Origin: an uncultured Pelagibacteraceae bacterium
GTDB taxonomy: Bacteria > Pseudomonadota > Alphaproteobacteria > Pelagibacterales > Pelagibacteraceae
Length of the DNA stretch: 64,000 nt
Direction of reading: 5' to 3'
NCBI GenBank assembly: GCA_902543485.1
Contig: CACBYP010000004.1
Span: 74,501 to 138,500 of the forward strand
Under the pieces are notes generated by a model, which did not search any database, was not told the DNA's origin, and worked only from the letters and a program-made list of their open reading frames with translations. A program made the position numbers and the translations under genes. This document shows, piece after piece, positions 9,260-50,289 of this stretch; within the stretch, counting starts at the first letter, position 1; each line of letters opens with the position of its first letter.

Positions 9260-11064
9260 TCTTTATTAATTCTTAAAACGCCTATAAATGCTTCTTGAGG
9301 AATCTCAACTTTTCCAAATTGCTTAGCTCTAGCCTTACCTTTTTTCTGTTTTTCTAGAAGTTTTCTTTTTCTATCTGTTGCCCCACCTCCATGAATTTTT
9401 GTTAATACATCCTTTTTGAAACCTTTGATAGTTTCTCTAGCAATAATTTTACCTCCAATAGCTGCTTGAACCGGTATCATAAAATTATGCCTTGGAATTA
9501 AATCTTTTAATTTTTCACAGACCTCTCTACCAGTAGTTTGAGCAAAATCTTTATGTATCATCATTGCAAGAGCATCAACGGGTTCTGAGTTTACAAGTAT
9601 ATTCATTTTTACAAGGTCTCCTTCTTTGTGATCAATAATTTCATAATCAAAACTAGCATAACCACTTGTCATAGATTTAAGACGATCATTAAAGTCAAAA
9701 ACGACTTCATTTAAAGGTATCTCATAATTAATTACTGCTCGATTCCCTGAATAACTTAAATTAGTTTGTATACCTCTTTTATTTTGACATAACTTGATAA
9801 TTGATCCTAAGTACTGGTCTGGAGTAATAATTGTAGCTTTAATCCATGGTTCTTCAATAAATTTTATATAAGTAGGATCTGGTAAATTTGATGGATTTTG
9901 GAGTTCTACAATTTCACCATTATTTAGGTGGACTTTATAAACAACGCCAGGTGTTGTAGTTAATAAATTAATATCAAACTCTCTTTCAAGCCTTTCTGTG
10001 ATTATTTCAAGGTGTAAAAGACCTAAAAATCCACATCTAAAACCAAGTCCTAAGGCAGACGATGACTCTGCTTCATAAGAAAAACTTGCATCATTTAATT
10101 GTAATTTAGCAAGTCCATCTTTTAATTTTTGATATTCAGAACTATCTACAGGAAATAAACCACAAAAAACTACTGGCTTACTTGGTTTGAAACCTGGTAA
10201 TGCATCTTTGAGGGGATTTTCTGCATCACATATGGTGTCTCCAACTTTGGTTTCAGATAAAATTTTAATACCAGTTGTAATAAAACCTATTTCTCCAGCG
10301 TTAAGTTCACTCACATCTTTTGCCTTAGGTGTAAAAACACCAACTTTTTCTATAATATATTCTTGATTTGTAGACATCATTTTTATTTTCATATTTTTTT
10401 TTAGTTTTCCATCTATAATTCTCACTAATATAACTACTCCAAGATAAGTGTCATACCAACTATCAACTAATAAACATTTTAATTTGCTATTTTTTTCACC
10501 TTTAGGTCCAGGTAAAAAGTTAATAATTTGCTCAAGAATTTCGTCTATTCCTTGTCCAGTTTTTCCAGAGCAAGGAACAGAATTAGATGTATCTATACCT
10601 ATAACATCTTCAATTTGATTATTTGTTCTTTCGAGATCAGATGCTGGTAGATCAATTTTATTTAATACTGGAATAATCTCATGATTTATGTCAAGTGCTT
10701 GATATACATTTGCAAGTGTTTGAGCTTCTACCCCTTGGGTACTATCTACAATTAATATTGAGCCCTCACACGCATAAAGGCTTCTACTAACTTCATAACT
10801 AAAATCTACATGTCCTGGGGTGTCTATAATATTTAAAATATAATTATTACCATTTTTAGCTTTATAATTTAATTTAACTGTTTGTGCTTTAATTGTTATC
10901 CCTCTCTCTCTTTCTATATCCATAGAGTCAAGTACTTGAGATTTCATTTCTCTATCACTCAAACCTCCACATTTATGAATTATTCTGTCAGCTATAGTTG
11001 ATTTGCCATGATCTATATGAGCTATAATTGCAAAATTCCTAATGTTATCAATTGTATTTCCCAT
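9256..11064 (-). CDS. lepA: Elongation factor 4 (LepA), ribosomal back-translocase GTPase
   Basis: A 602-residue translational GTPase, the normal LepA length. The G1 motif AHIDHGKST is at 15-23, G3 DTPGH and G4 NKID follow, and the effector segment [14 protein letters not shown] is present. The C-terminal LepA-specific domain is recognisable from [19 protein letters not shown] and [28 protein letters not shown]4 acts on stalled or mis-translocated ribosomes, especially under ionic stress. It is two bases downstream of pheT and overlaps the next gene by four, so it belongs to the long minus-strand translation cluster. Confidence 0.97.
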
Positions 11065-28485: not shown

Positions 28486-29765
28486 TGCTTAGCTAATTTG
28501 TAGGCAAAGTTTTTACCAAGGTTATTTTTTAATTCATTATTAAATCTTGAACCTTCAGCACCGTCAATAATTCTATGATCATAAGAGAGAGATAAAGGCA
28601 ACATTGTTCTAGGTTTAAATTGTCCATCAATATAAACAGGTTTAATATAAGTCCTTCCAATTCCTAAAATAGCAACCTCAGGATAATTTATTATAGGTGT
28701 AAAATAAGTTCCTCCAATGCCACCTAGGCTTGTTATAGTTATGGATCCTCCATAAAACTCTTTTTTATCTATCTTCAAATTTCGGCAATCATCACTAACT
28801 TTTTTTAGATCCTTGCTTATTTGATCTATATTCTTTTGATTAGCATTTCTTATTTTTGGCACCATTAAACCATTGGGAGTATCAACTGCAATTCCTACAT
28901 GGAAGTATTTTTTTAATGTTATTTTTCCATTTTCAATATTGTCAATAGAACTATTAAATCGTGGAAAAACTTTCAAAGCTTCCACAACTGCCTTTATAAT
29001 AAATGCCAATGGTGTAATTTTCTTTTTTTCTCCAGTAAAAGTATCAGTCAAATTTTGTCTAAATTCTTCTAACTCAGTGATATCTGCTTCATCACAACTA
29101 GTAACATGCGGTATTGTTTGCCAAGAATTTGATAAATGTGGAGCAGCAATTCTTTTAATTCTTGGTATATCTTGAATTTCTACATCTCCAAAATCAGCGT
29201 GATCATATTCTGAGGGCTTTATAGATGGAGCCTTCTTTTCTTCTTGAGGTTTATTAAAATTAAAAGATACGAATTTTTTTATATCCTCCTCTATAATTCT
29301 TCCTGATCGTTGTGATCCAGTAATATTATTAATATCAACACCAAGTTCTCTTGCAAATTTTCTAGTTTTTGGGCTAGCAAGTGCTTTGCTTGATTTGAAT
29401 ACACTAACTCTATTATTTTTTAATATTTCTTTTGGTTTTGAAATTAGTTTTTCGGATGTTTTTTGTATAATAGTTTCTTCTTTAATCTCTTTGACCTCTT
29501 CTTCAATTTGCTCATCTGGTTTTTCTTCTTCTGAACCAATTATTAGTATTGATGAACCCTTTGAAACCTTATCACCAACTTTTAAATTAACTTTTTTAAC
29601 ACTACCTGAGTATGGGCTTGGGATCTCAACACTTGATTTATCGCTTTCTATTGTAATTATTGGATCATCTTTATTAATATTTGATCCTGGCTCTATTAAT
29701 ACCTCAATTACTTCAACATCTTTAAAATCACCAATGTTAGGAACTAATACTTCTTTCTCGGTCAT
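28482..29765 (-). CDS. aceF: Pyruvate dehydrogenase E2, dihydrolipoamide acetyltransferase
   Basis: A 427-residue E2 chain. One lipoyl domain spans about 1-78, with the lipoylated Lys43 in ESDKSSVE. A flexible linker follows, then a peripheral subunit-binding domain at about 127-163 (ALASPKTRKFARELGVD) and the acetyltransferase domain from about 200, with catalytic H397-x3-D401 in DHRIIDG. It has a single lipoyl domain where some proteobacterial E2 chains have three. The ATG shares a base with the aceE stop. The E3 gene is not next to it. Confidence 0.95.
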   Translation of the reverse strand: MTEKEVLVPNIGDFKDVEVIEVLIEPGSNINKDDPIITIESDKSSVEIPSPYSGSVKKVNLKVGDKVSKGSSILIIGSEEEKPDEQIEEEVKEIKEETIIQKTSEKLISKPKEILKNNRVSVFKSSKALASPKTRKFARELGVDINNITGSQRSGRIIEEDIKKFVSFNFNKPQEEKKAPSIKPSEYDHADFGDVEIQDIPRIKRIAAPHLSNSWQTIPHVTSCDEADITELEEFRQNLTDTFTGEKKKITPLAFIIKAVVEALKVFPRFNSSIDNIENGKITLKKYFHVGIAVDTPNGLMVPKIRNANQKNIDQISKDLKKVSDDCRNLKIDKKEFYGGSITITSLGGIGGTYFTPIINYPEVAILGIGRTYIKPVYIDGQFKPRTMLPLSLSYDHRIIDGAEGSRFNNELKNNLGKNFAYKLAKQ

Positions 29766-38259: not shown

Positions 38260-40214
38260 TGCGATTTTAACTCAATAAGATTTTTATATTCATTTAAAGC
38301 AGATGGATTGGATAATGCTTCAATATTATTTATTTTATTGCCATCTATTACATTTTTTACAGCTACTTCTACAATTTTACCATTCTTAGTTCTAGGAATA
38401 TCACTTACTGCAATTATTTTAGCAGGTACATGTCTCGGGGAAGCCTCATATCTAATTGTTGTTTTTAGTTTTGAAATTAATTTTTCATCTAATTTATTTT
38501 TTTTTGATAAGACTACAAAAAGTATTATTCTTATATCGTTATCCCAAGATTGACCTACTACGATAGACTCTTTTACTTCCTTAAATTTTTCTACAACAGA
38601 ATAAATTTCAGCTGTACCAAGTCGAACACCTCCTGGGTTTAGTGTTGCATCTGATCTTCCATAGATAATATAAGAACCATTATTCTTTCTCTCAGCATAA
38701 TCTCCATGATGCCAAATATTTTTAAATTTTGAAAAATAAGCTTTTTTATATTTAACTTTTCCAGGATCATTCCAAAATTTTAAAGGCATCGATGGAAAAG
38801 CGTTTCTACATACTAGTTCTCCTTTTTTATTTAAAATTGATTTACCTTTTTCAGAAAATACTGCTGTATCCATACCAAGACCATTGTCCTGTATTTCACC
38901 ACTATTTACAGCTGAATAAATGTTTCCATTTACAAAACAGGAGACAATATCTGTCCCACCGGAAATCGAAGCTAAATGAACATTTTTTTTTATGTTTTTA
39001 TAAACAAATTCAAAACCATCATTAGATAGCGGGGACCCCGTAGAACAAATAGTCTTCAAAGACTTGAGTTTAATTTTTTCTTTTACATTAACATCCTGCT
39101 TTATAAGTTGATCAATATATTTTGCACTTATGCCAAATAGAGTAACTTTCTCTCTATTCGCAATTTTTAATAATAGCTCTGGAGATTTATGCATAGGAAA
39201 ACCATCAAATAGTAGTATTGATGCTTTAGATGCTAAGGCTGTAACAAGCCAATTCCACATCATCCATCCACAAGTTGTAAAGTAAAATACATTATCATTT
39301 GGTTTTATATTGCAATGTAATTGATGCTCTTTCAAATGTTGCAACAAAACTCCACCAGATCTATGGCAAATACATTTTGGTTTACCTGTTGTACCACTAG
39401 AGTACAAAATTGCTAACTCATGGTCAAAATCGAATTTTTTTAATTTATTCGTGCTTATTTCAAGTTTTTTAATCTCAGCGAAATAATAAATTTTTATATT
39501 TTTAATTTTTTTTAATTTTCTTAATTTTTTTCCAGGATAATTTAAAATTAATACCGATTTTATACTTTTTATTTTTTTTAATATTTTAGGTAATCTTTCG
39601 ATAATATTTATTTCCTTTCCGTTATAATAATATTTATCAGTAATGATTAATAATTTAGGTTTAATTTGAGAAAAACGTTCTATAACTCCAGGTACACCAA
39701 AATCAGGTGAGCACGAACTCCAGATTGATCCTATAGCACTAGCACTTAAGAAACATTGTACTGTTTCTATCTGATTTGGAGTATATGCTGCTATTCTATC
39801 GTTTTCAGAAATACTTATTTTTTTATAAAATGTAATTATTTTTTTTACATCAATATTAAGTTCTTTCCATGACTTTTGTTCTCTGTAACCATTTTCACTA
39901 ACAAATGTAATAGCTTTTTGATTGGAATTTTTAACTAGAAGATTTTCTGTAAAATTTAATTTTGAATTAACAAAAAACTTACTATTAATAAGATCCTTGG
40001 TTAGTTTGAATTTATTAGTTTTTATTCCTATTACTTGAAAGTATTTCCAGATTGAGTTCCAAAAATCTTTAGGATTTTTTACACTCCATTTTAATAATTT
40101 TTTATAGTTTCTCGAAATGTTATATTTATAGTATTTTGAAATAAATTTCTCATATGAATACAAATTCGAATTTTTTATAAGTGCTTTAGAAGGTTCCCAA
40201 AGTTTTTTTGGCAT
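38256..40214 (-). CDS. aacS: Acetoacetyl-CoA synthetase
   Basis: A 652-residue adenylate-forming enzyme that activates acetoacetate to acetoacetyl-CoA. The N-terminus MPKKLWEPSK and the segment FWNSIWKYFQV are those of acetoacetate-CoA ligase rather than acetyl-CoA synthetase. The ATP motif YSSGTTGKPKCICH is near 271. GRSDATLNPGGVRLGTAEIY and the C-terminal PRTKNGKIVEVAVK give the hinge and the acetyl-regulated lysine. It is the first gene of a two-gene unit with the aminotransferase. Confidence 0.92.
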   Translation of the reverse strand: MPKKLWEPSKALIKNSNLYSYEKFISKYYKYNISRNYKKLLKWSVKNPKDFWNSIWKYFQVIGIKTNKFKLTKDLINSKFFVNSKLNFTENLLVKNSNQKAITFVSENGYREQKSWKELNIDVKKIITFYKKISISENDRIAAYTPNQIETVQCFLSASAIGSIWSSCSPDFGVPGVIERFSQIKPKLLIITDKYYYNGKEINIIERLPKILKKIKSIKSVLILNYPGKKLRKLKKIKNIKIYYFAEIKKLEISTNKLKKFDFDHELAILYSSGTTGKPKCICHRSGGVLLQHLKEHQLHCNIKPNDNVFYFTTCGWMMWNWLVTALASKASILLFDGFPMHKSPELLLKIANREKVTLFGISAKYIDQLIKQDVNVKEKIKLKSLKTICSTGSPLSNDGFEFVYKNIKKNVHLASISGGTDIVSCFVNGNIYSAVNSGEIQDNGLGMDTAVFSEKGKSILNKKGELVCRNAFPSMPLKFWNDPGKVKYKKAYFSKFKNIWHHGDYAERKNNGSYIIYGRSDATLNPGGVRLGTAEIYSVVEKFKEVKESIVVGQSWDNDIRIILFVVLSKKNKLDEKLISKLKTTIRYEASPRHVPAKIIAVSDIPRTKNGKIVEVAVKNVIDGNKINNIEALSNPSALNEYKNLIELKSQ

Positions 40215-40376
40215 TAAAAATTTATATTTATATTGTAAAATTTATGCTAACCTTAGTTGTTAAAAATTGAAAATGAGAACTTTTTCCTATCTGATTCGGA
40301 CTAGTTTTAGTCTATTTTTGTTCTTTTTGAGCAACAAAATATAGTAGGCCAAAAAAAGATCATACTAAAAGTTGAT
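40215..40376 (+). other. Leader region of the SUV3-like helicase gene with a possible upstream mini-ORF
   Basis: This 162-base divergent spacer is long for the window. It contains a 23-codon open frame (40273-40344, starting MRTFSYLIRTSF) with no clear ribosome-binding site. Inside it is a small hairpin, GACTA-GTTT-TAGTC (40299-40312), followed by T-rich DNA. Together these could be a leader or attenuator for the helicase, but each part is weak and may be chance. Confidence 0.25.
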
Positions 40377-42857
40377 ATGTCAAAAAATAAGATAACTGCA
40401 GTTCTTGGACCTACAAATACTGGCAAAACTTTTTTAGCAATAGAAACGATGCTTTCTTTTGACTCTGGAATGATAGGATTTCCATTAAGGCTATTAGCAA
40501 GAGAAGTATACGACAAAATAATACAAAAAGTAGATGCCTCAAAGGTGGCTCTAATCACCGGTGAAGAAAAAATTATACCAATTAATGCAAAGTATTTTTT
40601 GTGCACCGTGGAATCAATGCCTGTTGACAAAGTATTAGATTTTGTGGGCATAGATGAAATTCAAATGTGCTCTGATCACGAGCGAGGTCATATTTTTACA
40701 GATAGATTGTTAAATCTGAGAGGTGATAAATTAACAATGCTAATGGGTTCTAATACTATAAAAAGTATTATTCAAAAACTTGATGATGATATTGAGTTTA
40801 TAAATAAACAGAGATTATCAAAACTTTCATTTGGGGGACATAAGAAAATTTCAAGAATTGAAAGAAAAAGCGTAGTTATAGCTTTTTCAACAGAAGAAGT
40901 TTATGCAATTGCAGAACTTATAAGAAGACAAAAAGGTGGAGCAGCTATTGTTATGGGATCCCTCAGTCCAAAAACTAGAAATGCTCAAGTAAATTTATAT
41001 CAATCAGGAGATGTTGATTACCTAGTGGCTACAGATGCGATTGGAATGGGAATAAATATGGACTTAGATCATGTTTACTTCTCAAACTTAAAAAAATTTG
41101 ATGGGAAAAAAATAAGAAGATTGAAAATCTCTGAAATTGGACAAATTTCAGGAAGAGCTGGTCGATATTTAAATGATGGCAGTTTTGGTATTACGGGAGA
41201 TTGTGACGAAATTAATCCAGAGGAAATTGAATTATTAGAAGATCATAATTTTCCTGAAATACAGAATATATTTTGGAGAAATTCAAATTTAAATTTTAAT
41301 AATAAAGAAACTTTGCTAAAATCATTGGATGAGAGGCCCAAAAAAGATTGGTTAAGAAGAGTTGGAGAATGTGAAGATGAAAAAGTTTTAAAATATTTTT
41401 TAAAAGAAAATAATATTACTGTAGATGATAACTCAGATATCTTGAAAACCCTTTGGGAATGCTGTCAAATTCCTGATTTTGTTAAAAAAACTTACGGTCA
41501 CCATTTGGAAGTCGTGAACAAAGTTTTTAACTTTTTAACATGTGAAGATCAAAAAGTACCAAACCATTATATGAAAAAACAGCTTTCTATGCTTGATAAA
41601 CTAGACGGAAATGTAGACTCTATTTCAAATAGAATATCTAACGTTAGAACTTGGTCATATGTTTCAAATAAGTCTAACTGGGTTGAAAATCAAGATTATT
41701 GGATTGAAAGAACTAAGAACTTAGAAGATAAATTATCAGACCGACTTCATGATGAGTTAACTAAAACATTTATCGATAAAAGAGCTAGTGTTTTAGCAAA
41801 AGGACTAAAGCAAGATATAGAATTAAAAACTGAAATTCTTGAAAAGGAAAGGGTATTAATTAACGGACAGTACATAGGAATTTTAAAAGGATTAAAACTA
41901 CAATTAGATTTAAAAATTGATGCTTTAGACGCAGATATCAAATCATTAAAGAAGGCTGCAAGACAAAATGTTGGGCCTGAAATAATAAGTAGAATGAAAC
42001 AAATAATTGGCACAGGTCTAATAGAATTAAAAGATGATTTTAAAATATATTGGAATGGAGATCCCATAGCAAAACTTGTGGCTGGCTCAGATTATCTAAA
42101 TCCAAAAATAGATTTAATAATTGACGAAATGATTGAAAATGATGAGAGAAATAAATTAAATGAATACCTTAATAAATGGATAATTAAAAAAATTACAAAT
42201 GAACTCAACAGCCTTATTGAGTTGAAAAACATAAAAGAGGAAAATCCTGAACTTAGAGCTTTAGCGTACAGACTTTATGAAAATAACGGTGTCATAAAAA
42301 GATCAAATATTTCTGAATATTTAAAAAGAATAAATCAAAATGATAGAAAAAAATTAAGAAGACTTGGAGTTAAATTTGGGAGGTACCATATTTTTTTATT
42401 TAAGTTATTTAAACCTAGCTCAGTTTTACTGCGAACAACATTATGGAAAAATTATAATAATAAATTTTTGAATTTATTGCCACCAACATTTGGTTTAAAT
42501 TTTTTAGATAATATGAAATCAGCAAATAAGGATTTTATGTTATTATGTGGTTTTGAAAAATTTGATAACATGTTTGTTAGAATAGATATTCTTGAAAGAT
42601 TATTTTTATTAATATTTAATTCTGAAAAAGATGACAAAAAAGAAGTGAAAGTAGTTTCAGAAATGTTAAATCTTCTTGGCTGTTCTAAAGAAAACTTTAA
42701 AAAGTTGTTAAAAAAGATGGATTATAAGATTTACGAGAAGGAAAAAGATCTTTTCATTAAATATCTTCCATTAAAAAAGAAGATTAAGAAAAAAGTTGAC
42801 AAAAAAGACTATTCAAATAATCCATTCAGTATATTAGATCGATTAAATTTAAAATAA
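40377..42857 (+). CDS. SUV3-like superfamily 2 RNA helicase
   Basis: An 826-residue helicase related to mitochondrial SUV3, common in alphaproteobacteria. Motif I GPTNTGKT is at 11-18, motif II appears as DEIQM (near 91), and the second RecA domain has ATDAIGMGINMDLDHVYF and motif VI QISGRAGRY. The long C-terminal part (about 330-826) is alpha-helical and ends in a lysine-rich tail. In mitochondria SUV3 works with PNPase in RNA decay; the bacterial role is less known. The stop shares a base with the TerB-like ATG, starting a four-gene run with the ferredoxin and carD. Confidence 0.9.
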   Translation: MSKNKITAVLGPTNTGKTFLAIETMLSFDSGMIGFPLRLLAREVYDKIIQKVDASKVALITGEEKIIPINAKYFLCTVESMPVDKVLDFVGIDEIQMCSDHERGHIFTDRLLNLRGDKLTMLMGSNTIKSIIQKLDDDIEFINKQRLSKLSFGGHKKISRIERKSVVIAFSTEEVYAIAELIRRQKGGAAIVMGSLSPKTRNAQVNLYQSGDVDYLVATDAIGMGINMDLDHVYFSNLKKFDGKKIRRLKISEIGQISGRAGRYLNDGSFGITGDCDEINPEEIELLEDHNFPEIQNIFWRNSNLNFNNKETLLKSLDERPKKDWLRRVGECEDEKVLKYFLKENNITVDDNSDILKTLWECCQIPDFVKKTYGHHLEVVNKVFNFLTCEDQKVPNHYMKKQLSMLDKLDGNVDSISNRISNVRTWSYVSNKSNWVENQDYWIERTKNLEDKLSDRLHDELTKTFIDKRASVLAKGLKQDIELKTEILEKERVLINGQYIGILKGLKLQLDLKIDALDADIKSLKKAARQNVGPEIISRMKQIIGTGLIELKDDFKIYWNGDPIAKLVAGSDYLNPKIDLIIDEMIENDERNKLNEYLNKWIIKKITNELNSLIELKNIKEENPELRALAYRLYENNGVIKRSNISEYLKRINQNDRKKLRRLGVKFGRYHIFLFKLFKPSSVLLRTTLWKNYNNKFLNLLPPTFGLNFLDNMKSANKDFMLLCGFEKFDNMFVRIDILERLFLLIFNSEKDDKKEVKVVSEMLNLLGCSKENFKKLLKKMDYKIYEKEKDLFIKYLPLKKKIKKKVDKKDYSNNPFSILDRLNLK

Positions 42858-43282
42858 TGTTCAATTTGTTCAAAAAAGAAAATAAAAAAATTAATAATAA
42901 GGATCATTTATCTTTGATTAGTATAGCTGCATTGCTAATACACTCTGCAAAAATTGATGAAAATTTTACTGAGAAAGAAAAAACTATAATAAAAAATGCA
43001 TTAATAGAAATGGGAGCAGAAGAAAAAAATTTAGATGAAATATTGAATGATGCAGAAGAAAAAGAAAGAGACGCAAATCAAATATTAGAATTTACTAGAG
43101 AAGTAAAAAATAAAAATATTGATGAAAAAAAGATAGTTATTGAAGCATTATGGAATATTATTTACTCAGACGAAAATGCTGATATGTATGAAACAAACTT
43201 AATGAGAAGATTATCGGGATTATTATACCTTGATCCAAAAATAGTTGGCGACATTAAAGAAAAAATAAAATTAAAACAGTGA
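42857..43282 (+). CDS. TerB-like (DjlA N-terminal-like) helical protein
   Basis: A 141-residue acidic helical protein matching the TerB/DjlA-N domain: [24 protein letters not shown] (split: [13 protein letters not shown], then [11 protein letters not shown]) near 20-43 and [22 protein letters not shown] near 94-115. The two acidic turns (DENFT, DENAD) are the presumed metal-binding sites of the fold. The name reflects the fold; there is no sign of a tellurite operon. Related proteins in alphaproteobacteria are often next to carD or ferredoxin genes. It overlaps fdxA by four bases (GTGA). Confidence 0.8.
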
Positions 43283-43605
43283 CATACTTGGTTAATGATA
43301 AATGTATAAAATGTAAACACACAACATGCGTGGATGTTTGCCCAGTTGATTGTTTTTATGAGGGCAAAAATATGCTTGTAATTAAACCGGATGAGTGTAT
43401 AGATTGTGGCGTTTGCGAGCCTGAATGTCCAGTTGATGCAATAGTTTCAGATACTGAGCCAGGAAGCGAAAAATGGTTAGAGGTTAACTCGAAGTATTCA
43501 GAAATTTGGCCAAATATTTCTGAAACAAAAGATCCTCTTCCGGATCATGAAAAATACAAAAATGAAAAAGATAAGTTTGATAAATACTTTGAAGAAAACA
43601 TTTAA
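43279..43605 (+). CDS. fdxA: 7Fe ferredoxin, FdxA type
   Basis: A 108-residue ferredoxin with two cluster motifs: C9-x2-C12-x4-C17-x3-C21 with C25 beyond ([17 protein letters not shown]), and [12 protein letters not shown]. This is the 3Fe-4S plus 4Fe-4S arrangement of FdxA. The C-terminal part, rich in charged residues, is typical of alphaproteobacterial FdxA. The start is GTG, overlapping the TerB-like stop. It carries electrons at low potential for unidentified partners. Its 3' end is overlapped by the start of carD. Confidence 0.92.
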
Positions 43606-44428
43606 AACAAAAAAAACTGAAAAAAAAAGAAAAATCAAAAAATCAGTTATCAAACAAAAAAAAGAAAAAATTGTCGTAAAACAAAAAAAAGAAAAAGTTT
43701 TAAAGAAACCAAAAGCAAAAATACAAAAAAAATCTCCTAAAAAAGCTTCAAAGCTAAAAACTCTTAAGAACGAAAAGAAAGAAGTAACTGAAAATAACAC
43801 AAATTTGCTGCGTATTCCAAAAAACAGCGAACAAAAGCCCGAAATTAAAAAAGTTAAAAAACAAGATACAGAAAAAAAAGAATACAAAATCAAAGATTAT
43901 GTTGTTTATCCAAAACATGGTGTTGGTCAAATCACTGAATTTAAAAAAATGAATATTGGAGGTATTGAGATTGAAACTTACATAATGAAATTTGAAAAAG
44001 ACAAAGCTAATGGAATGGTTCCTGTTAATAAACAGTCACATTTAAGACCATTAGCAACAATTAACCAAGTAAATAAATGTATAAGTATTTTAAAAAGTAA
44101 ACCTAAAATCAAAAGAAGCATGTGGAGTAGGAGAGCACAAGAATACGAAGCGAAAATATCATCTGGTAAAATCTATGAGTTAGCGGAAGTTGTAAGAGAT
44201 TTAAATAAAGGGGATGATCTTATGGTTGATCAGTCGTATAGTGAAAGACAGTTATTTGAAAAAGCTTATGATAGAATTCTTACTGAATTTCAAATCGTTT
44301 TAGATATAAGCTTGGAGGACACTCAAAAAAAACTCGATAAAGCTCTAAAAAGAAATTTAGAAAAACAAGTTCAGAAGACTGAAATAAAGCCAGCGGAAGA
44401 AGAAATTTCTGAAGAAATAGCTAAATAA
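43547..44428 (+). CDS. carD: CarD/CdnL-family RNA polymerase-binding regulator with long lysine-rich N-terminal tail
   Basis: The C-terminal part from about residue 113 is a full CarD-like domain: [17 protein letters not shown], then the helical DNA-binding part with [15 protein letters not shown] and AEVVRDL. CarD/CdnL binds the RNA polymerase beta subunit and stabilises open complexes at rRNA and other promoters. Ahead of it lies a tail of about 100 residues dominated by Lys, with few hydrophobic residues, resembling histone H1-like tails. The start is uncertain: ATG 43547 overlaps fdxA by 59 bases, ATG 43562 and TTG 43589 are alternatives, the last reducing overlap to 17. All keep most of the tail. 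Confidence 0.88.
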
Positions 44429-44432
44429 AAAA

Positions 44433-44465
44433 AACGCTCCTCACGCAAGCGCCATGAGAAGCGTT
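44433..44465 (-). terminator. Intrinsic terminator of the basic peptide gene, at the convergent junction with carD
   Basis: Arms AACGCT (44433-44438) and AGCGTT (44460-44465), extended inward by CTCA/TGAG after a one-base mismatch. On the minus strand the stem is followed directly by eight T and more AT, so it is a strong terminator for the small gene at 44488-44571. On the plus strand the following bases (ATTTAATAAAAAG) are a poor tail, so it probably terminates carD less well. Confidence 0.85.
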
Positions 44466-44487
44466 ATTTAATAAAAAGAATACTAAA

Positions 44488-44571
44488 CTATTTTCTTCTT
44501 CTCTTCTTAGCTTTTTTCTTAGCTTTTTTCTTAGTTTTCTTTTTAGCAGCTTTTTTTCTTCTTTTAGCCAT
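44488..44571 (-). CDS. 27-residue extremely basic peptide, possible nucleoid or RNA-binding miniprotein
   Basis: A 27-codon gene: 15 Lys and 5 Arg of 27 residues, the rest Ala, one Thr and the initiator Met, and no acidic or hydrophobic residue. It begins MAKRRKKAAKKKTKKK and ends in RRRK, with a repeated KKKA unit encoded by 12-base repeats. A strong GGGAG ribosome-binding site lies six bases before the ATG. It has a perfect TTGACA -35, a hairpin at the 5' end of the predicted leader, and an eight-T intrinsic terminator, so it looks like a complete, highly expressed unit. Composition resembles histone H1-like tails and the N-terminal tail of CarD next door. Function unknown. Confidence 0.7.
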   Translation of the reverse strand: MAKRRKKAAKKKTKKKAKKKAKKRRRK

Positions 44572-44592
44572 CTTTAGCTCCCTTTTTTTATT

Positions 44593-44611
44593 ACGAATCT
44601 TTTTGATTCGT
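44593..44611 (-). promoter_or_regulatory. 5' leader hairpin of the basic peptide mRNA
   Basis: A perfect 7-base inverted repeat, ACGAATC and GATTCGT, around a 5-base loop. It lies just inside the predicted transcription start (about 44616) and some ten bases before the Shine-Dalgarno sequence. Hairpins at the extreme 5' end often protect bacterial mRNAs from decay. It could instead be an operator. Confidence 0.55.
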
Positions 44612-44622
44612 TTAATTACCTT

Positions 44623-44651
44623 TTTGTAATTTTTTTGAATAGTTATGTCAA
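44623..44651 (-). promoter_or_regulatory. Promoter of the basic peptide gene
   Basis: On the minus strand TTGACA (44651-44646) is a perfect -35 and TACAAA (44628-44623) a fair -10, with exactly 17 bases between. The predicted start near 44616 gives a leader of about 45 bases containing the hairpin and GGGAG. The remaining DNA up to 44756 is very AT-rich with no other feature I can name. Confidence 0.6.
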
Positions 44652-44756
44652 TTACATAATTTTTAGAATTTTTTTAATTTTTTTTTTATAAAAAATAAAA
44701 AATAAATAATTAAAAAAAGTTACGTAAAATAAGGATTATTAAACAAATTTTTTTAC

Positions 44757-46463
44757 TTAATTATAAAGCTCTTCAAAATTTTTTTTATATTTATTTATAA
44801 TTTTATATCTTTTTAACTTTAATGTTGGTGTTAACATTCCATTTTCAATTGAAAATTTTTCATTTATTGAAAAGAACTTTTTAATATTTTCTATTTTTGA
44901 AAGATTATTATTCAAATTATTTATTGAATTATGAATTTCTTCATTTGTAATATTAGTAAATTCGTCTTTTAAAACTAATAATGCTACCAAATAAGGTTTG
45001 TTGTCTCCATACACTACCGCTTGATCAATAAAGTCTAAGTTTACTAATTCATTTTCAATTTTTAATGGAGAAATATTATCTCCACCAGGAGTGATGAGAA
45101 TATCTTTTTTTCTGTCTGTAATTTTTAAAAAATTATTTTCAAATACTCCAATATCTCCAGTATGAAGCCAGCCATCTTTTAAGACTTTTTCAGTCTCTTC
45201 TTTATTATTCCAATAGCCCAACATAACATTTTCACCTTTTACTAATATTTCTCCATCATCAGCTATTTTTACTGCATTTCCCTTAAATGGCGGACCAACG
45301 GTATCTATTCTGATATCATTTATTGGATTACAGCTTACCACCGGAGAAGTTTCTGTTAGCCCATAACCTTGCAGAGTTGGTAAACCAATAGCATTCAAAA
45401 AATACCCAACCTCTTTATCTAAGGCACCACCTCCAGAAACAAAAGTTTTAAGAGATCCTCCAAATTGTGATTTTATTTTTTTTCTAACCATTTTCTCTAA
45501 AATTCTATCTTGGATTTTTTCGAAAATAGTTAAATTTTCTTTTTTAATTTTTTTTAGACCTAATTCTAACATTTTAAAAATTAATTTTTTTTTCAATCCT
45601 GTAGCTTTTTTAAAACTTGCATTAATTTTTTGATAAAGATTTTGATAAAATCTTGGTACAGCTGTCATGATTTCAGGAGAACAATCACCCATATTTTTAA
45701 CCAATTTATCGATGCTCTCTGCGTAAAAAATTCTAGCTGCTACAGTAATTTGTACAAATTGAACAGTGTGCTCGTAAGAATGTGAAAGTGGAAGCCATGT
45801 AAGGAACCTGGGCTGTTCTTTAGACAATAACGGTTTTAAAATATCTATTGCGCCCTCACAATTATTTAAGATACCTCCATGACTTAAAATTACTCCCTTG
45901 GGATTTCCTTGAGTACCTGATGTATAAATTATGCAAGACGGATCTTTTCTTGAGGCCAATGATTTATGAATTGGTATATTTTTTTTATTATTTTGAATTA
46001 AATCTTTTAAATTAATATATTCATTTTCTATATTTGTTAATTTTTCAAAGGAAAATATTTTTTTTATAAATTTTTTGTCTTTAATAATATTTTTCAATTT
46101 ATTAAATTGTTCGTCATTTGAAACAAAAATTACACTTGGAGTGCAATCATTAAGAATATAATTATAGTCATTTTCTGCATAAGTTGTGTAAGCTGGAACA
46201 GTTATCCCATCTGATAACATTATAGATAAGTCTGTGATAAACCATTCAGGTCTATTTTCAGAAATTAATAAACACCTATCACCTTTTGATATTACTTTTC
46301 TTAATTCATTAGAAACTAAACTAATAAAATCATATGTTTCTTGCCACGAATAATTTTTTCTTTTATCACCTAAAGTTGACAATAATATTTTGTCTTTGTT
46401 AGTTTGTTGATTAAATTGATCAAAAAACAATTCAGTTAGATTATTAATTTGTTTCAAGTTCAT
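44757..46463 (-). CDS. Long-chain acyl-CoA synthetase (AMP-binding)
   Basis: A 568-residue adenylate-forming enzyme of the long-chain acyl-CoA synthetase type. The ATP motif is YTSGTQGNPKGVILSHGG, with QGYGLTETSPVV and DGWLHTGDIG further on and ITDRKKDILITPGGDNISP as the hinge. It activates fatty acids for degradation or lipid synthesis. I use the ATG at 46463; an in-frame TTG at 46481 would run into the 3' end of tRNA-Leu. The ATG lies nine bases after the tRNA CCA end, so the two are probably co-transcribed. Confidence 0.92.
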   Translation of the reverse strand: MNLKQINNLTELFFDQFNQQTNKDKILLSTLGDKRKNYSWQETYDFISLVSNELRKVISKGDRCLLISENRPEWFITDLSIMLSDGITVPAYTTYAENDYNYILNDCTPSVIFVSNDEQFNKLKNIIKDKKFIKKIFSFEKLTNIENEYINLKDLIQNNKKNIPIHKSLASRKDPSCIIYTSGTQGNPKGVILSHGGILNNCEGAIDILKPLLSKEQPRFLTWLPLSHSYEHTVQFVQITVAARIFYAESIDKLVKNMGDCSPEIMTAVPRFYQNLYQKINASFKKATGLKKKLIFKMLELGLKKIKKENLTIFEKIQDRILEKMVRKKIKSQFGGSLKTFVSGGGALDKEVGYFLNAIGLPTLQGYGLTETSPVVSCNPINDIRIDTVGPPFKGNAVKIADDGEILVKGENVMLGYWNNKEETEKVLKDGWLHTGDIGVFENNFLKITDRKKDILITPGGDNISPLKIENELVNLDFIDQAVVYGDNKPYLVALLVLKDEFTNITNEEIHNSINNLNNNLSKIENIKKFFSINEKFSIENGMLTPTLKLKRYKIINKYKKNFEELYN

Positions 46464-46471
46464 ATATTTTT

Positions 46472-46558
46472 TGGTGGGCAAAGAGAGAATCGAACTCTCA
46501 CAGTATTGCTACTATTGGATTTTGAGTCCAACGCGTCTACCAGTTCCGCCATTCGCCC
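46472..46558 (-). tRNA. tRNA-Leu (CAA)
   Basis: On the minus strand the gene begins GGGCGAATGGCGGAACTGG and ends TTTGCCCACCA, so the acceptor stem pairs with one G-T and CCA is encoded. The anticodon arm TTGGA-CTCAAAA-TCCAA places CAA at 46522-46524. The long variable arm and GAGAGTTCGATTCTC T-arm fit class II leucine tRNA. CAA reads the UUG codon. Confidence 0.97.
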
Positions 46559-46578
46559 ATTTATTTTTAGTTTCATAG

Positions 46579-46613
46579 AATATAAATAATAGTATTAAAA
46601 CACTATTTATATT
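46579..46613. repeat. Inverted repeat upstream of the YqaA/DedA-family gene
   Basis: Perfect 10-base arms AATATAAATA (46579-46588) and TATTTATATT (46604-46613) around 15 bases, in the 65-base spacer between tRNA-Leu and the membrane protein gene. The right arm ends ten bases before the ATG at 46624. It could be an operator or a leader hairpin, and each arm also contains -10-like TATAAA sequence reading outward. Chance is possible. Confidence 0.35.
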
Positions 46614-46623
46614 AAAAGAAAAT

Positions 46624-47232
46624 ATGTTTAAGGAACTATTTAATAAAACAATTAAACTTGCAGGACATAAAAATTCAAAAAAAATTTTAGGTTTTATTTC
46701 TTTTATTGAGAGTTTCATATTTCCTATTCCACCAGATGTTCTTATTATTCCAATGACTATTGCCGACAGACAAAGATGGATGAAGATAGCAATTATTGCT
46801 ACGACAGGATCCGTCTTTGGTGCATGTTTGGGATATTTCATAGGATATGTTTTTTTCAATGAAATTGGAATTAAGATTTTTGAGCTTTACGGTGTAGATA
46901 ATACTTCATTTTTAAAAGATAAAATTTCATCAGATGGAGGGGTTTTTGCATGGGCAACGTTGCTGGCTATAGCGGGTTTTACACCCATACCCTTTAAATT
47001 ACTCACAATAACAAGTGGGTTTGTTCAATTTAATATTGTCTATTTTATAATTGTCTCCTTGGTAACAAGAGGATCTAGATTTTTTATAATAGCTTTCTTG
47101 GTTGGAAATTTTGGTCCTACTATGAAAACAATAATTGAAAAAAAGCTGCTTAAAGTTTCAATTATAATTTCAATTGTATTAATAGTTTTTGCTTTTTTAA
47201 TTTATAAATTTTTACAAAACTTTATGAACTAA
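46624..47232 (+). CDS. YqaA/DedA-family inner membrane protein
   Basis: A 202-residue membrane protein with about four to five hydrophobic segments. The DedA-type re-entrant motifs are visible: FISFIESFIFPIPPDVLIIPM near 24-44 (FIESFIFPIPPDV) and IAGFTPIPFKLLTITSGF near 119-136. These proteins are related to SNARE-associated (VTT) flippases and help membrane lipid balance and envelope integrity. It starts a four-gene run with dsbB and coq7 on the plus strand; one base separates its stop from dsbB. Confidence 0.88.
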   Translation: MFKELFNKTIKLAGHKNSKKILGFISFIESFIFPIPPDVLIIPMTIADRQRWMKIAIIATTGSVFGACLGYFIGYVFFNEIGIKIFELYGVDNTSFLKDKISSDGGVFAWATLLAIAGFTPIPFKLLTITSGFVQFNIVYFIIVSLVTRGSRFFIIAFLVGNFGPTMKTIIEKKLLKVSIIISIVLIVFAFLIYKFLQNFMN

Positions 47233-47233
47233 A

Positions 47234-47707
47234 ATGAATTTTATTTTTAAAAGAAAAAATATTTATTTATTAATTTTTATATACTCAATTATTGCTATAT
47301 TATCTGCGATCTACATTGAAAAAGTTCTCGGGTATTTGCCTTGTAAATTATGTATTTATCAAAGAATTCCTTTTTTAGTAGCGATCTTCATTTGTTTTTT
47401 GGGATATAACTATATTAAATCTGATAGAATATTAATTGCTTTAATCATTACATTCACACTGAGCACTGCTCTTGCAGGATATCATTTTGGTATAGAAAAT
47501 GGCTTTTTTGATGAATATGCTGGTTGCACAAACACAAATATAGATATCACGAATAAAGAAAAAATAATCGAAAGTCTTGGAATGGTAAAAAATTGTAAAG
47601 ATGTAGAGTTTACTATTTTAGGCATATCTTTATCTGGATTAAATTTTTTAACATCTTTACTAATTGTGTTATTTTCGCTAAGAGCTCTTGTTTATGAAAA
47701 AAACTAA
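47234..47707 (+). CDS. dsbB: DsbB-like disulfide bond formation protein
   Basis: A 157-residue inner membrane protein with four transmembrane segments. The quinone-linked cysteine pair is C37-x2-C40 (LPCKLCIYQR) and the second periplasmic pair is C98 and C121. DsbB reoxidises DsbA and passes electrons to ubiquinone. No dsbA is in the window. It overlaps the COQ7 gene by 14 bases from that gene's ATG. Confidence 0.92.
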   Translation: MNFIFKRKNIYLLIFIYSIIAILSAIYIEKVLGYLPCKLCIYQRIPFLVAIFICFLGYNYIKSDRILIALIITFTLSTALAGYHFGIENGFFDEYAGCTNTNIDITNKEKIIESLGMVKNCKDVEFTILGISLSGLNFLTSLLIVLFSLRALVYEKN

Positions 47708-48227
47708 CAAAAGAAAATTAGAAGAATTTATTAGAGTTGATCACGCAGGCGAAAGAGGTGCAATTAAAATATATGAAGGTCAACTTTTAGCACTGAAAAC
47801 ATTTAAAAAGGATCCTGAACTATTAAAATTAGTAGAAGAAATGAGAGAACATGAGCAAGAACATAGTGATTTTTTTGAAAATGAAATCAGAGAAAGAAAT
47901 ATAAAACCAACTAAATTTTTACCACTATGGGATCTATTGGGAGTAGGTTTGGGTTTTGGCTCAACAATATTAGGAAAAAAGGCAGCAATGCTGTGCACAG
48001 CTTCTGTTGAGGAAGTAATTGATAAACATTACCAAAGTCAAATAGATCAATTACAAGATGATGAGAAAAAACTTAGAGAAAAAATTAAAAAATTTAGAGC
48101 TGATGAATTAGAACATAAAGATATTGCATATGAGCACGGCGCAACAAAAAAAGGATTATATTCAGTGATGGATAAAATTATTAAAACGGGCTCAAAAATT
48201 GCTATAAATATCTCTGAAAAAATTTAA
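47694..48227 (+). CDS. coq7: COQ7-type demethoxyubiquinone hydroxylase
   Basis: A 177-residue di-iron carboxylate protein of the COQ7/CLK-1 group, which carries out a late hydroxylation in ubiquinone synthesis. Iron ligands appear in DHAGERGAIKIYEGQ (17-31), EHEQEHSDFF, SVEEVIDKHY and DELEHKDIA. I use the ATG at 47694; a TTG two codons earlier is possible. ubiE and ubiB at 57.7-60 kb belong to the same pathway. Its TAA overlaps the TAA of the convergent HNH gene in TTAA. Confidence 0.94.
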   Translation: MKKTNKRKLEEFIRVDHAGERGAIKIYEGQLLALKTFKKDPELLKLVEEMREHEQEHSDFFENEIRERNIKPTKFLPLWDLLGVGLGFGSTILGKKAAMLCTASVEEVIDKHYQSQIDQLQDDEKKLREKIKKFRADELEHKDIAYEHGATKKGLYSVMDKIIKTGSKIAINISEKI

Positions 48228-48796
48228 CTAGGATCTAATTCTACATCCCAATATAAATAATCCATCCAACTGCTATGTAAAAAATTAGGAGGAAAATTCT
48301 TCCCATTTCTATGAAGATCTTCTGTTGTTGGTTGAAAAGGCCATTGATTTAATTTCATTCCAGAATTTTTTAGCAATCTTCCACCTTTTTTTACATTACA
48401 TGCTGAGCATGCAGTAACAACGTTTTCCCAATCAGTTTTTCCACCTTTTGATCTTGGAAGAAGATGGTCAAAAGTTAGTTCATCGTTACTTCCACAATAT
48501 TGACAACTAAACTTATCTCGTAGAAAAACATTAAATCTTGTGAAATTTGGATTTGAACGAGGCTTTATAAAAGATTTTAATGCAATAACACTTGGTAACT
48601 GCATAGAGAATGATGGGCTTCTTATCATTCTATCATAATGACTTACAATGGACACTCTATCTAGAAAAACAGATTTAATAGCGTCTTGCCATGACCATAA
48701 TGATAAAGGATAATAGCTTAATGGTCTGTAATCTGCGTTAAGGACTAGAGCTGGACATTTTTCTAGTGAAAGGTTTTCATTGATCATCATAGTCAT
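48224..48796 (-). CDS. HNH endonuclease family protein
   Basis: A 190-residue protein with an HNH nuclease domain at about 90-140: FSCQYCGSNDELTFDHLLPR followed by GGKTDWENVVTACSACNVKKG. This gives two CxxC zinc pairs and the H...N...H-type core with DH at the metal site. The N-terminal part (CPALVLNADYRPLSYYPLSLW) and Trp-rich C-terminus are those of a conserved chromosomal family found widely in alphaproteobacteria, not of a mobile homing enzyme. The role is unknown. Confidence 0.88.
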   Translation of the reverse strand: MTMMINENLSLEKCPALVLNADYRPLSYYPLSLWSWQDAIKSVFLDRVSIVSHYDRMIRSPSFSMQLPSVIALKSFIKPRSNPNFTRFNVFLRDKFSCQYCGSNDELTFDHLLPRSKGGKTDWENVVTACSACNVKKGGRLLKNSGMKLNQWPFQPTTEDLHRNGKNFPPNFLHSSWMDYLYWDVELDPS

Positions 48797-48855
48797 AATT
48801 ATTTAATATATTATATATTATTATTAATCAATGTAACAAAATAAATTAATTATCT

Positions 48856-49512
48856 TTAAGAATCAAAATTATCTTTAATAAATTTTAATGCATTACTTGA
48901 AGCTTCAACTGGTATATGATGGTCGCAGTCTTTGATCATTAAAGTTTCTATACTAATATTATTCCGTGTAAAAAAATCTTTTGCTTCCAATAAATTGTAG
49001 GGTGGAACTATTTCATCTTTTTCACCATGAATTAATAAAGTTTTTGTTTTAGAAATTAACCTTAAACTAAGATCCTCTTTATCTATAATCTTTCCGGAAA
49101 ATCCAACAATACAATTAAAGGGATCTTTAGAAGTTAAGCCCAAGTTTATTGACATCATGCAACCCTGACTAAATCCAGATAAACATATCTTTGAATTTTC
49201 CAAATTATATTCTGTTTTAACTTCTTCAATATATTTTCTTAATTTATCTTCAGCTTTTTTTGCTTCGTTTAAAATATAATTTTTATCATTTGTTTCTAAA
49301 TCAAACCATTGATAACCAATTGGATTAATTTTACATGGTTCGTGTCCATTCGGACATAAGAATACTGTATTGTTTAAAAACCTTTTCCAATTCAGAGTTA
49401 ACATGCTTATATCTTTTCCATCTCCACCATATCCATGAAGTAAAATTACTGCATTTTTGATGTCGGACCGATTTTCAGGTTTTATAATTGTTGATTCAAG
49501 GCAAAATGTCAT
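48856..49512 (-). CDS. Phospholipase/carboxylesterase family alpha/beta hydrolase
   Basis: A 218-residue cytoplasmic esterase. HGYGGDGKD near 26-34 is the oxyanion region, SGFSQGCMMS the nucleophile elbow, HGEKDEIVP the acid position and DCDHHIP the catalytic His. It is typical of the carboxylesterase YpfH/acyl-protein thioesterase-like group with a broad ester range. It shares a 49-base divergent spacer with the HIG1 gene. Such esterases are often next to bolA/cobST in alphaproteobacteria; here the gene is elsewhere. Confidence 0.9.
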   Translation of the reverse strand: MTFCLESTIIKPENRSDIKNAVILLHGYGGDGKDISMLTLNWKRFLNNTVFLCPNGHEPCKINPIGYQWFDLETNDKNYILNEAKKAEDKLRKYIEEVKTEYNLENSKICLSGFSQGCMMSINLGLTSKDPFNCIVGFSGKIIDKEDLSLRLISKTKTLLIHGEKDEIVPPYNLLEAKDFFTRNNISIETLMIKDCDHHIPVEASSNALKFIKDNFDS

Positions 49513-49561
49513 AGATAAGTAATTATGTTTTTTTATTTTAAAAAGAAACTAAAATCAAAGC

Positions 49562-49762
49562 ATGATTTCTGAAATATTTGTCAAAATTGCAGCGATTGTT
49601 TTGCTTGCAGCTGTAGCTGTAGTCTTAATTCTTGGAATTAGAACTCTTTTTAAAGGAGACGGAGATAAAAAAACATCTAACAAATTAATGCAGCTTAGAG
49701 TATTACTACAATTTGTTGCTATAATTGTGCTTGTAGCATTAGCTTACTTTTATAAAAACTAA
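49562..49762 (+). CDS. HIG1-domain twin-transmembrane protein
   Basis: A 66-residue protein with two transmembrane helices (about 8-28 and 47-64) joined by a short charged loop. The loop-helix sequence NKLMQLRVLLQFVAI is the HIG1 (hypoxia-induced gene 1) signature. Mitochondrial HIG1 proteins (Rcf1/Rcf2) associate with cytochrome c oxidase and respiratory supercomplexes, and the bacterial ones are thought to be similar. Its stop overlaps that of the convergent thioredoxin gene in CTAA. Confidence 0.85.
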   Translation: MISEIFVKIAAIVLLAAVAVVLILGIRTLFKGDGDKKTSNKLMQLRVLLQFVAIIVLVALAYFYKN

Positions 49763-50289
49763 TTTAATTCATTTAACCAATTTAAAAATTCATCACTGTT
49801 AAAATCTATTGAGCCAACAATTCTTGCAAACTCATAACCATCTTTATCAATGAATATTGTTGTGGGTATTCCTCTTAATTTTAAATTTTTTGCAATTCCA
49901 GCACCATCACCAACAAAAACTTGTAATTCTTCTATGAGCAGTTCATCAAAAAACTTCTTAGATTTACTAATATTTTCTCCACCTATATTTATTGGGATAA
50001 TCTTTAATTTTTTTTCATCCTTAAGTTTTTGAAGATTACTTAAAGATGGCATTTCCTCTCTACAAGGCGCGCACCATGTTGCCCAAAAATTCAGAATAAT
50101 TAATTCGGATTTAAAATCTTTCAAATTAACTTTATTTCCACCCTCATTTAAAAAGTCAAAAAACTTAATTTTTTGTTTTTCCTCATAAATTATTAGATTT
50201 TTTATATTTGGCGCTTCTATTGAATATGAAGAGCTAAATGATATGAAGTAAAGAAATATTATTTTAATGGATATAAATATAAATTTCAT
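49759..50289 (-). CDS. TlpA-like periplasmic thiol-disulfide oxidoreductase
   Basis: A 176-residue thioredoxin-fold protein with an N-terminal signal/anchor (about 1-24) and the active site WATWCAPC near 71-78. GIPTTIFIDKDG provides the cis-Pro loop. Such proteins reduce or maintain disulfides in the periplasm, for instance during cytochrome c or oxidase assembly. The ATG at 50289 gives a normal signal peptide; an upstream start at 50328 would run into argH. Only 19 bases separate it from argH. The neighbouring HIG1 gene and DsbB suggest respiratory or redox context, as inference. Confidence 0.88.
   Translation of the reverse strand: MKFIFISIKIIFLYFISFSSSYSIEAPNIKNLIIYEEKQKIKFFDFLNEGGNKVNLKDFKSELIILNFWATWCAPCREEMPSLSNLQKLKDEKKLKIIPINIGGENISKSKKFFDELLIEELQVFVGDGAGIAKNLKLRGIPTTIFIDKDGYEFARIVGSIDFNSDEFLNWLNELN

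Follow-up and report, generated by a model that had tools for sequence, protein, structure and literature searches.

Next to carD in the 64-kb stretch of SAR11 DNA analysed here (the window) lies a gene for a peptide of 27 residues, 15 of them lysine and five arginine. Comparison with its relatives strongly supports a conserved miniprotein gene: the frame is kept, synonymous changes accumulate, and gene order and expression signals are shared. The best reading of these sequences is that the peptide would be the minimal form of a histone H1-like gene family seen, in this analysis, only in SAR11, and we give about even odds to a stand-alone gene for a minimal H1-like (protamine-like) polycation that sits beside carD across the order. 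SAR11 bacteria count with the most abundant cellular organisms on Earth, their cells rank with the smallest that live freely, and their genomes are among the most streamlined. The gene should do something useful, since it is present wherever the locus is readable, has its own promoter-like site and terminator, and occupies a genome with little spacer. Its product would be either an extreme minimal case of a bacterial chromatin protein or a new ribosomal peptide. Such a gene or its product would be lost to any one of three steps, a size cut-off, a low-complexity filter or trypsin digestion, making it an example of a class that annotation, low-complexity filtering and tryptic mass spectrometry likely overlook together. 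We found no description of it in the open-licence literature.

The original prediction proposed a promoter, 5' hairpin, GGGAG, lysine/arginine ORF of 27 codons and terminator on the minus strand of the window, whose source genome measures 1.31 Mb, and every element lies where it was placed. Direct reading of that strand gives a −35 box TTGACA (44646–44651), a 17-nt spacer and a −10 element TACAAA (44623–44628). The latter is the weakest element, agreeing with consensus at four of six positions; relatives mostly have TAAAAA, and our promoter scan requires T as the sixth −10 base, so the window promoter is absent from its list. Transcription is predicted to start near 44616. There follow a hairpin of 7 bp, ACGAATC-AAAAA-GATTCGT, with an AAAAA loop (44593–44611), a Shine–Dalgarno sequence GGGAG (44578–44582), and the ORF itself (44488–44571), which translates as MAKRRKKAAKKKTKKKAKKKAKKRRRK, is identified by its conserved frame and synonymous variation, and past the initial Met lacks acidic and large hydrophobic residues. 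An intrinsic terminator, a 13-pair stem and then a run of eight T (44427–44465), separates the ORF from the convergent carD (43547–44428, plus strand; domains CarD_TRCF_RID and CarD_C, preceded by a lysine-rich N-terminal tail). Upstream, also on the minus strand, is an ORF named in the original prediction as a putative acyl-CoA synthetase (44757–46481). The accompanying claim that terminators are scarce in this segment was checked for positions 40000–50000, where six terminator-like sites were found against 3.1 expected, that of the peptide gene being the strongest. No other ATG-started ORF of 20–60 residues in the window reaches 60% K/R, and none arose when the window was randomized 100 times with a first-order Markov model, which together with conservation across relatives leads us to reject a chance ORF. 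A second basic small ORF, MSKLKKRSKRLKKKLLYKKHPKN, slightly more than half K/R, lies at about 29444–29515 (minus strand).

The relatives bear out the expectation that the ORF and its signals would recur next to carD. We assembled 65 SAR11 carD loci (30 from the family with the short protein and 20 from its sister family, in each case every match of the first carD search, and sets of 3 and 12 from further searches), and 59 contain the whole ORF (28, 18, 3 and 10 respectively). In five more the contig ends inside the ORF with its 3' end still readable (L014, L030, L051, L052, L218), and in one (L219) it ends within carD, ahead of the ORF. None of the 64 loci in which the ORF is partly or wholly readable has a disrupted frame, so the case named beforehand as refuting the proposal, a broken frame with the RNA structure kept, does not occur among them. 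TTGACA and both hairpin arms are each present in 45 of the 46 whole-ORF loci selected through carD, independently of the leader, the remaining locus (L020) ending short of them, and GGGAGCTAAAGATG stands at the ribosome site in 28 of 30 short-family loci, contig ends cutting the other two. The repeated ending of SAR11 contigs within this repetitive K/A-coding ORF, in the five loci named, raises the possibility that assembly gaps are caused by the gene itself.

Conservation extends to gene order and to the order as a whole. In 86 of 100 distinct named-record loci a CarD motif is found on the other strand, no more than 1300 nt away; of the remaining 14, eight have too little DNA, in five the motif of CarD is a variant one, and L199 has a different gene. 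Convergent carD is thus the next gene in 91 of the 92 loci with enough DNA, L199 being the sole case with an unrelated ORF in its place within 1500 nt. A leader model, R1, matched 237 of 298 Pelagibacterales genomes (E 0.001), once per genome among the matches listed; it is a sequence-only model because RNAalifold, given the mixed alignment of leaders, yielded no consensus pair. The set of 12 loci above came from 20 hand-chosen genomes, eight with and 12 without an R1 match. Eight of those 12 also lack a carD match and four are loci at contig ends, so the 12 absences looked into, out of 61 genomes in which R1 found nothing, fit missing assembly. In one genome (G351) the peptide gene, with a 29-residue product, lies at 410512–410601. 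This genome is probably HTCC1062: its tmRNA at 10219–10520 agrees in place with the region 10302–10518 given by Meyer et al. (2009; PMC2704228), while the 4.5S RNA listed there at 493521–493664 has no Rfam report in 493400–493800 of ours. Table 1 of that paper lists no intergenic region near 410 kb.

Substitutions within the short ORFs point to selection on the reading frame. pN/pS is 0.176, synonymous differences being about six times as frequent per site as non-synonymous ones (736 and 573 differences, from non-independent pairs of related sequences); read in frames +1 and +2 the same differences give 5.6 and 0.41, the latter likewise below 1. The commonest short protein has 10 DNA versions, which differ at six third positions only.

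The protein occurs in two forms. A script seeking GGAG, an upstream GAATCA and a K/R-rich ORF in 221 loci, which missed L027 and cut loci, returned 60 distinct short proteins (21–41 residues, 59 of them below 40; the start codon of L059 is ambiguous, giving 36 or 46) and 14 distinct long ones. Short proteins occur in one family, and long ones (40–91 residues) in a sister family, f2, the group of AG-422-B15 (record QCMN01000004.1, our L090, with the match place of G053). The long protein begins with MEELKVIFAKA or similar and continues in AAPKKKK-type repeats. Its locus has the same TTGACA, CGAATCA hairpin, GGAG and neighbouring carD as the short-form loci, the hairpin beginning 39–45 nt on in f2 and 39–42 nt on in the short form. 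We therefore regard the two forms as probably homologous, on the evidence of locus and leader and not of complex sequence. The short form is 54.9% K, 21.8% R and 18.4% A; the long form is 50.6% K, 24.7% A, 9.0% R and 6.7% P. Composition is like that of an H1 tail. Asp and Glu are absent from all 59 distinct short proteins analysed, and hydrophobic residues beyond Met1 occur in only one of the 59, as a second Met. Long-form lengths change by whole repeat units (40 vs 80 residues, for example); the short form varies from 21 to 41 residues without a long repeat. In the short proteins small residues stand 3–4 positions apart in 156 of 183 intervals (0.85), compared with a mean of 0.38 and a maximum of 0.50 in 300 shuffles; the spacing resembles one face of a helix, which is suggestive only, these proteins being related.

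These features invite comparison with known H1-like proteins, which are dominated by K and A (plus P, T or R), acidic and hydrophobic residues being rare or missing, as in the SAR11 proteins, and which have tandem repeats with length polymorphism, as the long form has. Chlamydial Hc2 (HctB) and BpH1 of Bordetella are described as similarly rich in Lys, Arg and Ala, with evenly spread charge and lengths that vary as repeat units are gained or lost in frame, which for Hc2 is published in PMC2848022. They are far longer, however (165–237 residues for Hc2 and 182–206 for BpH1, against 21–41 in SAR11 and 40–91 in the sister family), their repeat is a different one, and we found no sequence match. 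AlgP of Pseudomonas aeruginosa, described as DNA-binding, has a Lys/Ala/Pro repeat tail like the SAR11 long form, but is reported at 352 residues with a helical N-terminal domain, whereas the SAR11 protein is practically the tail alone. Protamines are likewise short chains charged through arginine or lysine; unlike the SAR11 peptide they have arginine clusters and belong to sperm chromatin. The proposal of an H1-like nucleic-acid-binding peptide gains indirect support, from composition and from the long protein that the sister family encodes at this locus; the abundance and nucleoid location proposed with it are putative.

If the peptide is such a polycation, transcription from the promoter would give an mRNA about 190 nt long, which the hairpin at its 5' end may guard from decay. 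The product, with a charge near +20, would fold as a helix upon contact with a polyanion, its small residues, one every 3–4 positions, lining one face; it would bind the DNA backbone without sequence specificity, neutralize charge and so compact the nucleoid. Length drift between 21 and 91 residues would be tolerated because only charge and spacing would matter. DNA compaction is the most likely role, with a chance that we put near one half. Somewhat more tentatively, packaging of the SAR11 genome may be aided by an order-wide family that has an H1-like tail, at most 91 residues long, at one extreme and a pure polycation of 21–41 at the other, in effect a minimal histone. The evidence does not discriminate between DNA and rRNA, tRNA or polyphosphate as the target. 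Pfam, NCBIfam and PHROGs profiles gave no match at E 1, in a search weakened by the low complexity of the query, and the 27-mer, a short low-complexity query, matched no PDB chain up to E 10; the long form had one non-significant PDB match (E 2.9), to ribosomal protein L29.

The alternative with the most in its favour, to which we would give perhaps half the weight of DNA compaction, is an unannotated ribosomal or rRNA-binding peptide resembling bS22 or eL41, a single basic helix seated in an rRNA pocket. The short form has a matching size and the helix-like spacing of small residues, and its gene is spread through the order. bS22 and eL41 are reported as 55–65% basic, eL41 being one helix of 24 residues, and the bS22 of Borrelia, with a gene span of 93 nt, is 61% K/R and described as non-annotated. 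Yet the published account of bS22 gives this basic helix a large share of hydrophobic residues, while 58 of the 59 short proteins have none after Met1; a length that stretches from 21 to 91 residues, with repeats in the long forms, is unlike a fit to one defined pocket. No Pfam, NCBIfam or PDB match was found either, in a weak test on a short query of low complexity. The corresponding Pfam families are COX24_C and Ribosomal_L41. Absence of the SAR11 peptide from proteomes would say little, since the AlgP paper notes that tryptic data may underestimate such proteins and bS22 is given as the ribosomal protein unidentified in the mass-spectrometry run of the Borrelia study.

It is less probable, though still worth weighing, that the peptide is a polyphosphate- or RNA-binding polycation like AlgP, or a general counter-ion, and not a chromatin protein. 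AlgP, H1-like with KPAA repeats, is reported at polyphosphate granules, where its tail is needed for granule spacing. The sequence evidence, however, holds no preference for polyphosphate over DNA, and AlgP, besides being far longer and having its helical N-terminal domain, is itself described as binding DNA.

The RNA features of the locus bear on a further alternative, that of a small regulatory RNA in which the ORF is incidental, which the original prediction itself raised. Its 5' hairpin and terminator are indeed conserved. All 119 distinct leaders folded give a stem (mean −8.1 kcal/mol), although they had been preselected for the 5' arm and many for both arms. Hairpin arms from 139 of the 140 loci with the short form give 20 distinct combinations, of which 20, 17 and 8 keep the free base pairs 3, 2 and 1, pairs 4–8 being nearly fixed by construction of the search expression; in two combinations (seven loci) the 3' arm has T where others have C, so that G–U replaces G–C, and the leader of L059 forms a different stem of 9 bp. 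For the terminator, 138 of the 140 loci supply 35 distinct combinations of arms: all keep pairs 4–9, every one of which shows two-sided changes, while 31 keep pair 10 and 27 keep pair 11; the search expression fixes pairs 1–3. Against a regulatory RNA stand third-position variation, in-frame length changes, the conserved ribosome site and the absence of a broken frame in the 64 readable loci, and we consider it improbable and reject it on pN/pS and intact frames. We also rejected a DNA operator of a regulon, preferring an RNA hairpin because the palindrome GAATCA-N(0–7)-GATTC occurs once in the genome (exact matches) and relatives have G–U pairs or an alternative stem. Rfam covariance models reached gathering score in the window only for three tRNAs. 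Least probable of all is a leader peptide whose Lys/Arg codons attenuate a downstream gene, or a peptide toxin: a terminator does follow a short ORF, but in 91 of 92 loci the next gene is the convergent carD, so that no co-oriented gene follows and an attenuator is rejected, and a toxin would want a hydrophobic segment for the membrane, which the peptide lacks.

In the f2 leaders a conserved ACCTCTAAC...AAACCC lies ahead of GGGGGGAG (L037 567–664, L053 650–749, L056 630–727), and a CCUC element there is able to base-pair with either the ribosome site or the start region, on weak evidence (four leaders, z −1.1 to −2.0). In L056 CCC/GGG is exchanged for CGC/GCG in this pairing. Translational autoregulation is possible there.

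The gene appears limited to SAR11 in the material searched. The leader pattern was found in at least 120 stretches of the genome collection, of which 118 listed are Pelagibacteraceae, Pelagibacterales or Candidatus Pelagibacter; the two non-SAR11 stretches among the matches listed (L107, Lysobacterales; L192, Spirochaetaceae) have no such ORF. Among 289 genomes of the class, eight matched R1 at E 0.01; three are Pelagibacter, and the other five matches are partial, with E from 4e-4 to 8e-3. As R1 overlooks G143, a divergent relative possessing the gene, its negatives outside the order are not proof of absence. No ORF of K, R and A only lies beside carD in 46 neighbourhoods of other Alphaproteobacteria (the best 26 of 257 matches plus 20 chosen, mostly small genomes, a few being cut at contig edges, as in L065 and L082), and no outgroup with the gene emerged. 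Short Arg-rich ORFs beside carD in four of them (L063, L069, L251, L259) look like chance frames. A phage origin was rejected, no viral contig having the exact leader pattern.

The neighbouring CarD has a lysine-rich N-terminal extension. Among the loci measured it spans 99–128 residues with 37–44% K/R in Pelagibacter and f2 (the window, 43547–44428, plus strand; L037, L053, L241–L243 and others) and 45–63 residues in three loci of other genera. Similar tails precede the CarD domain in several other alphaproteobacterial CarD proteins.
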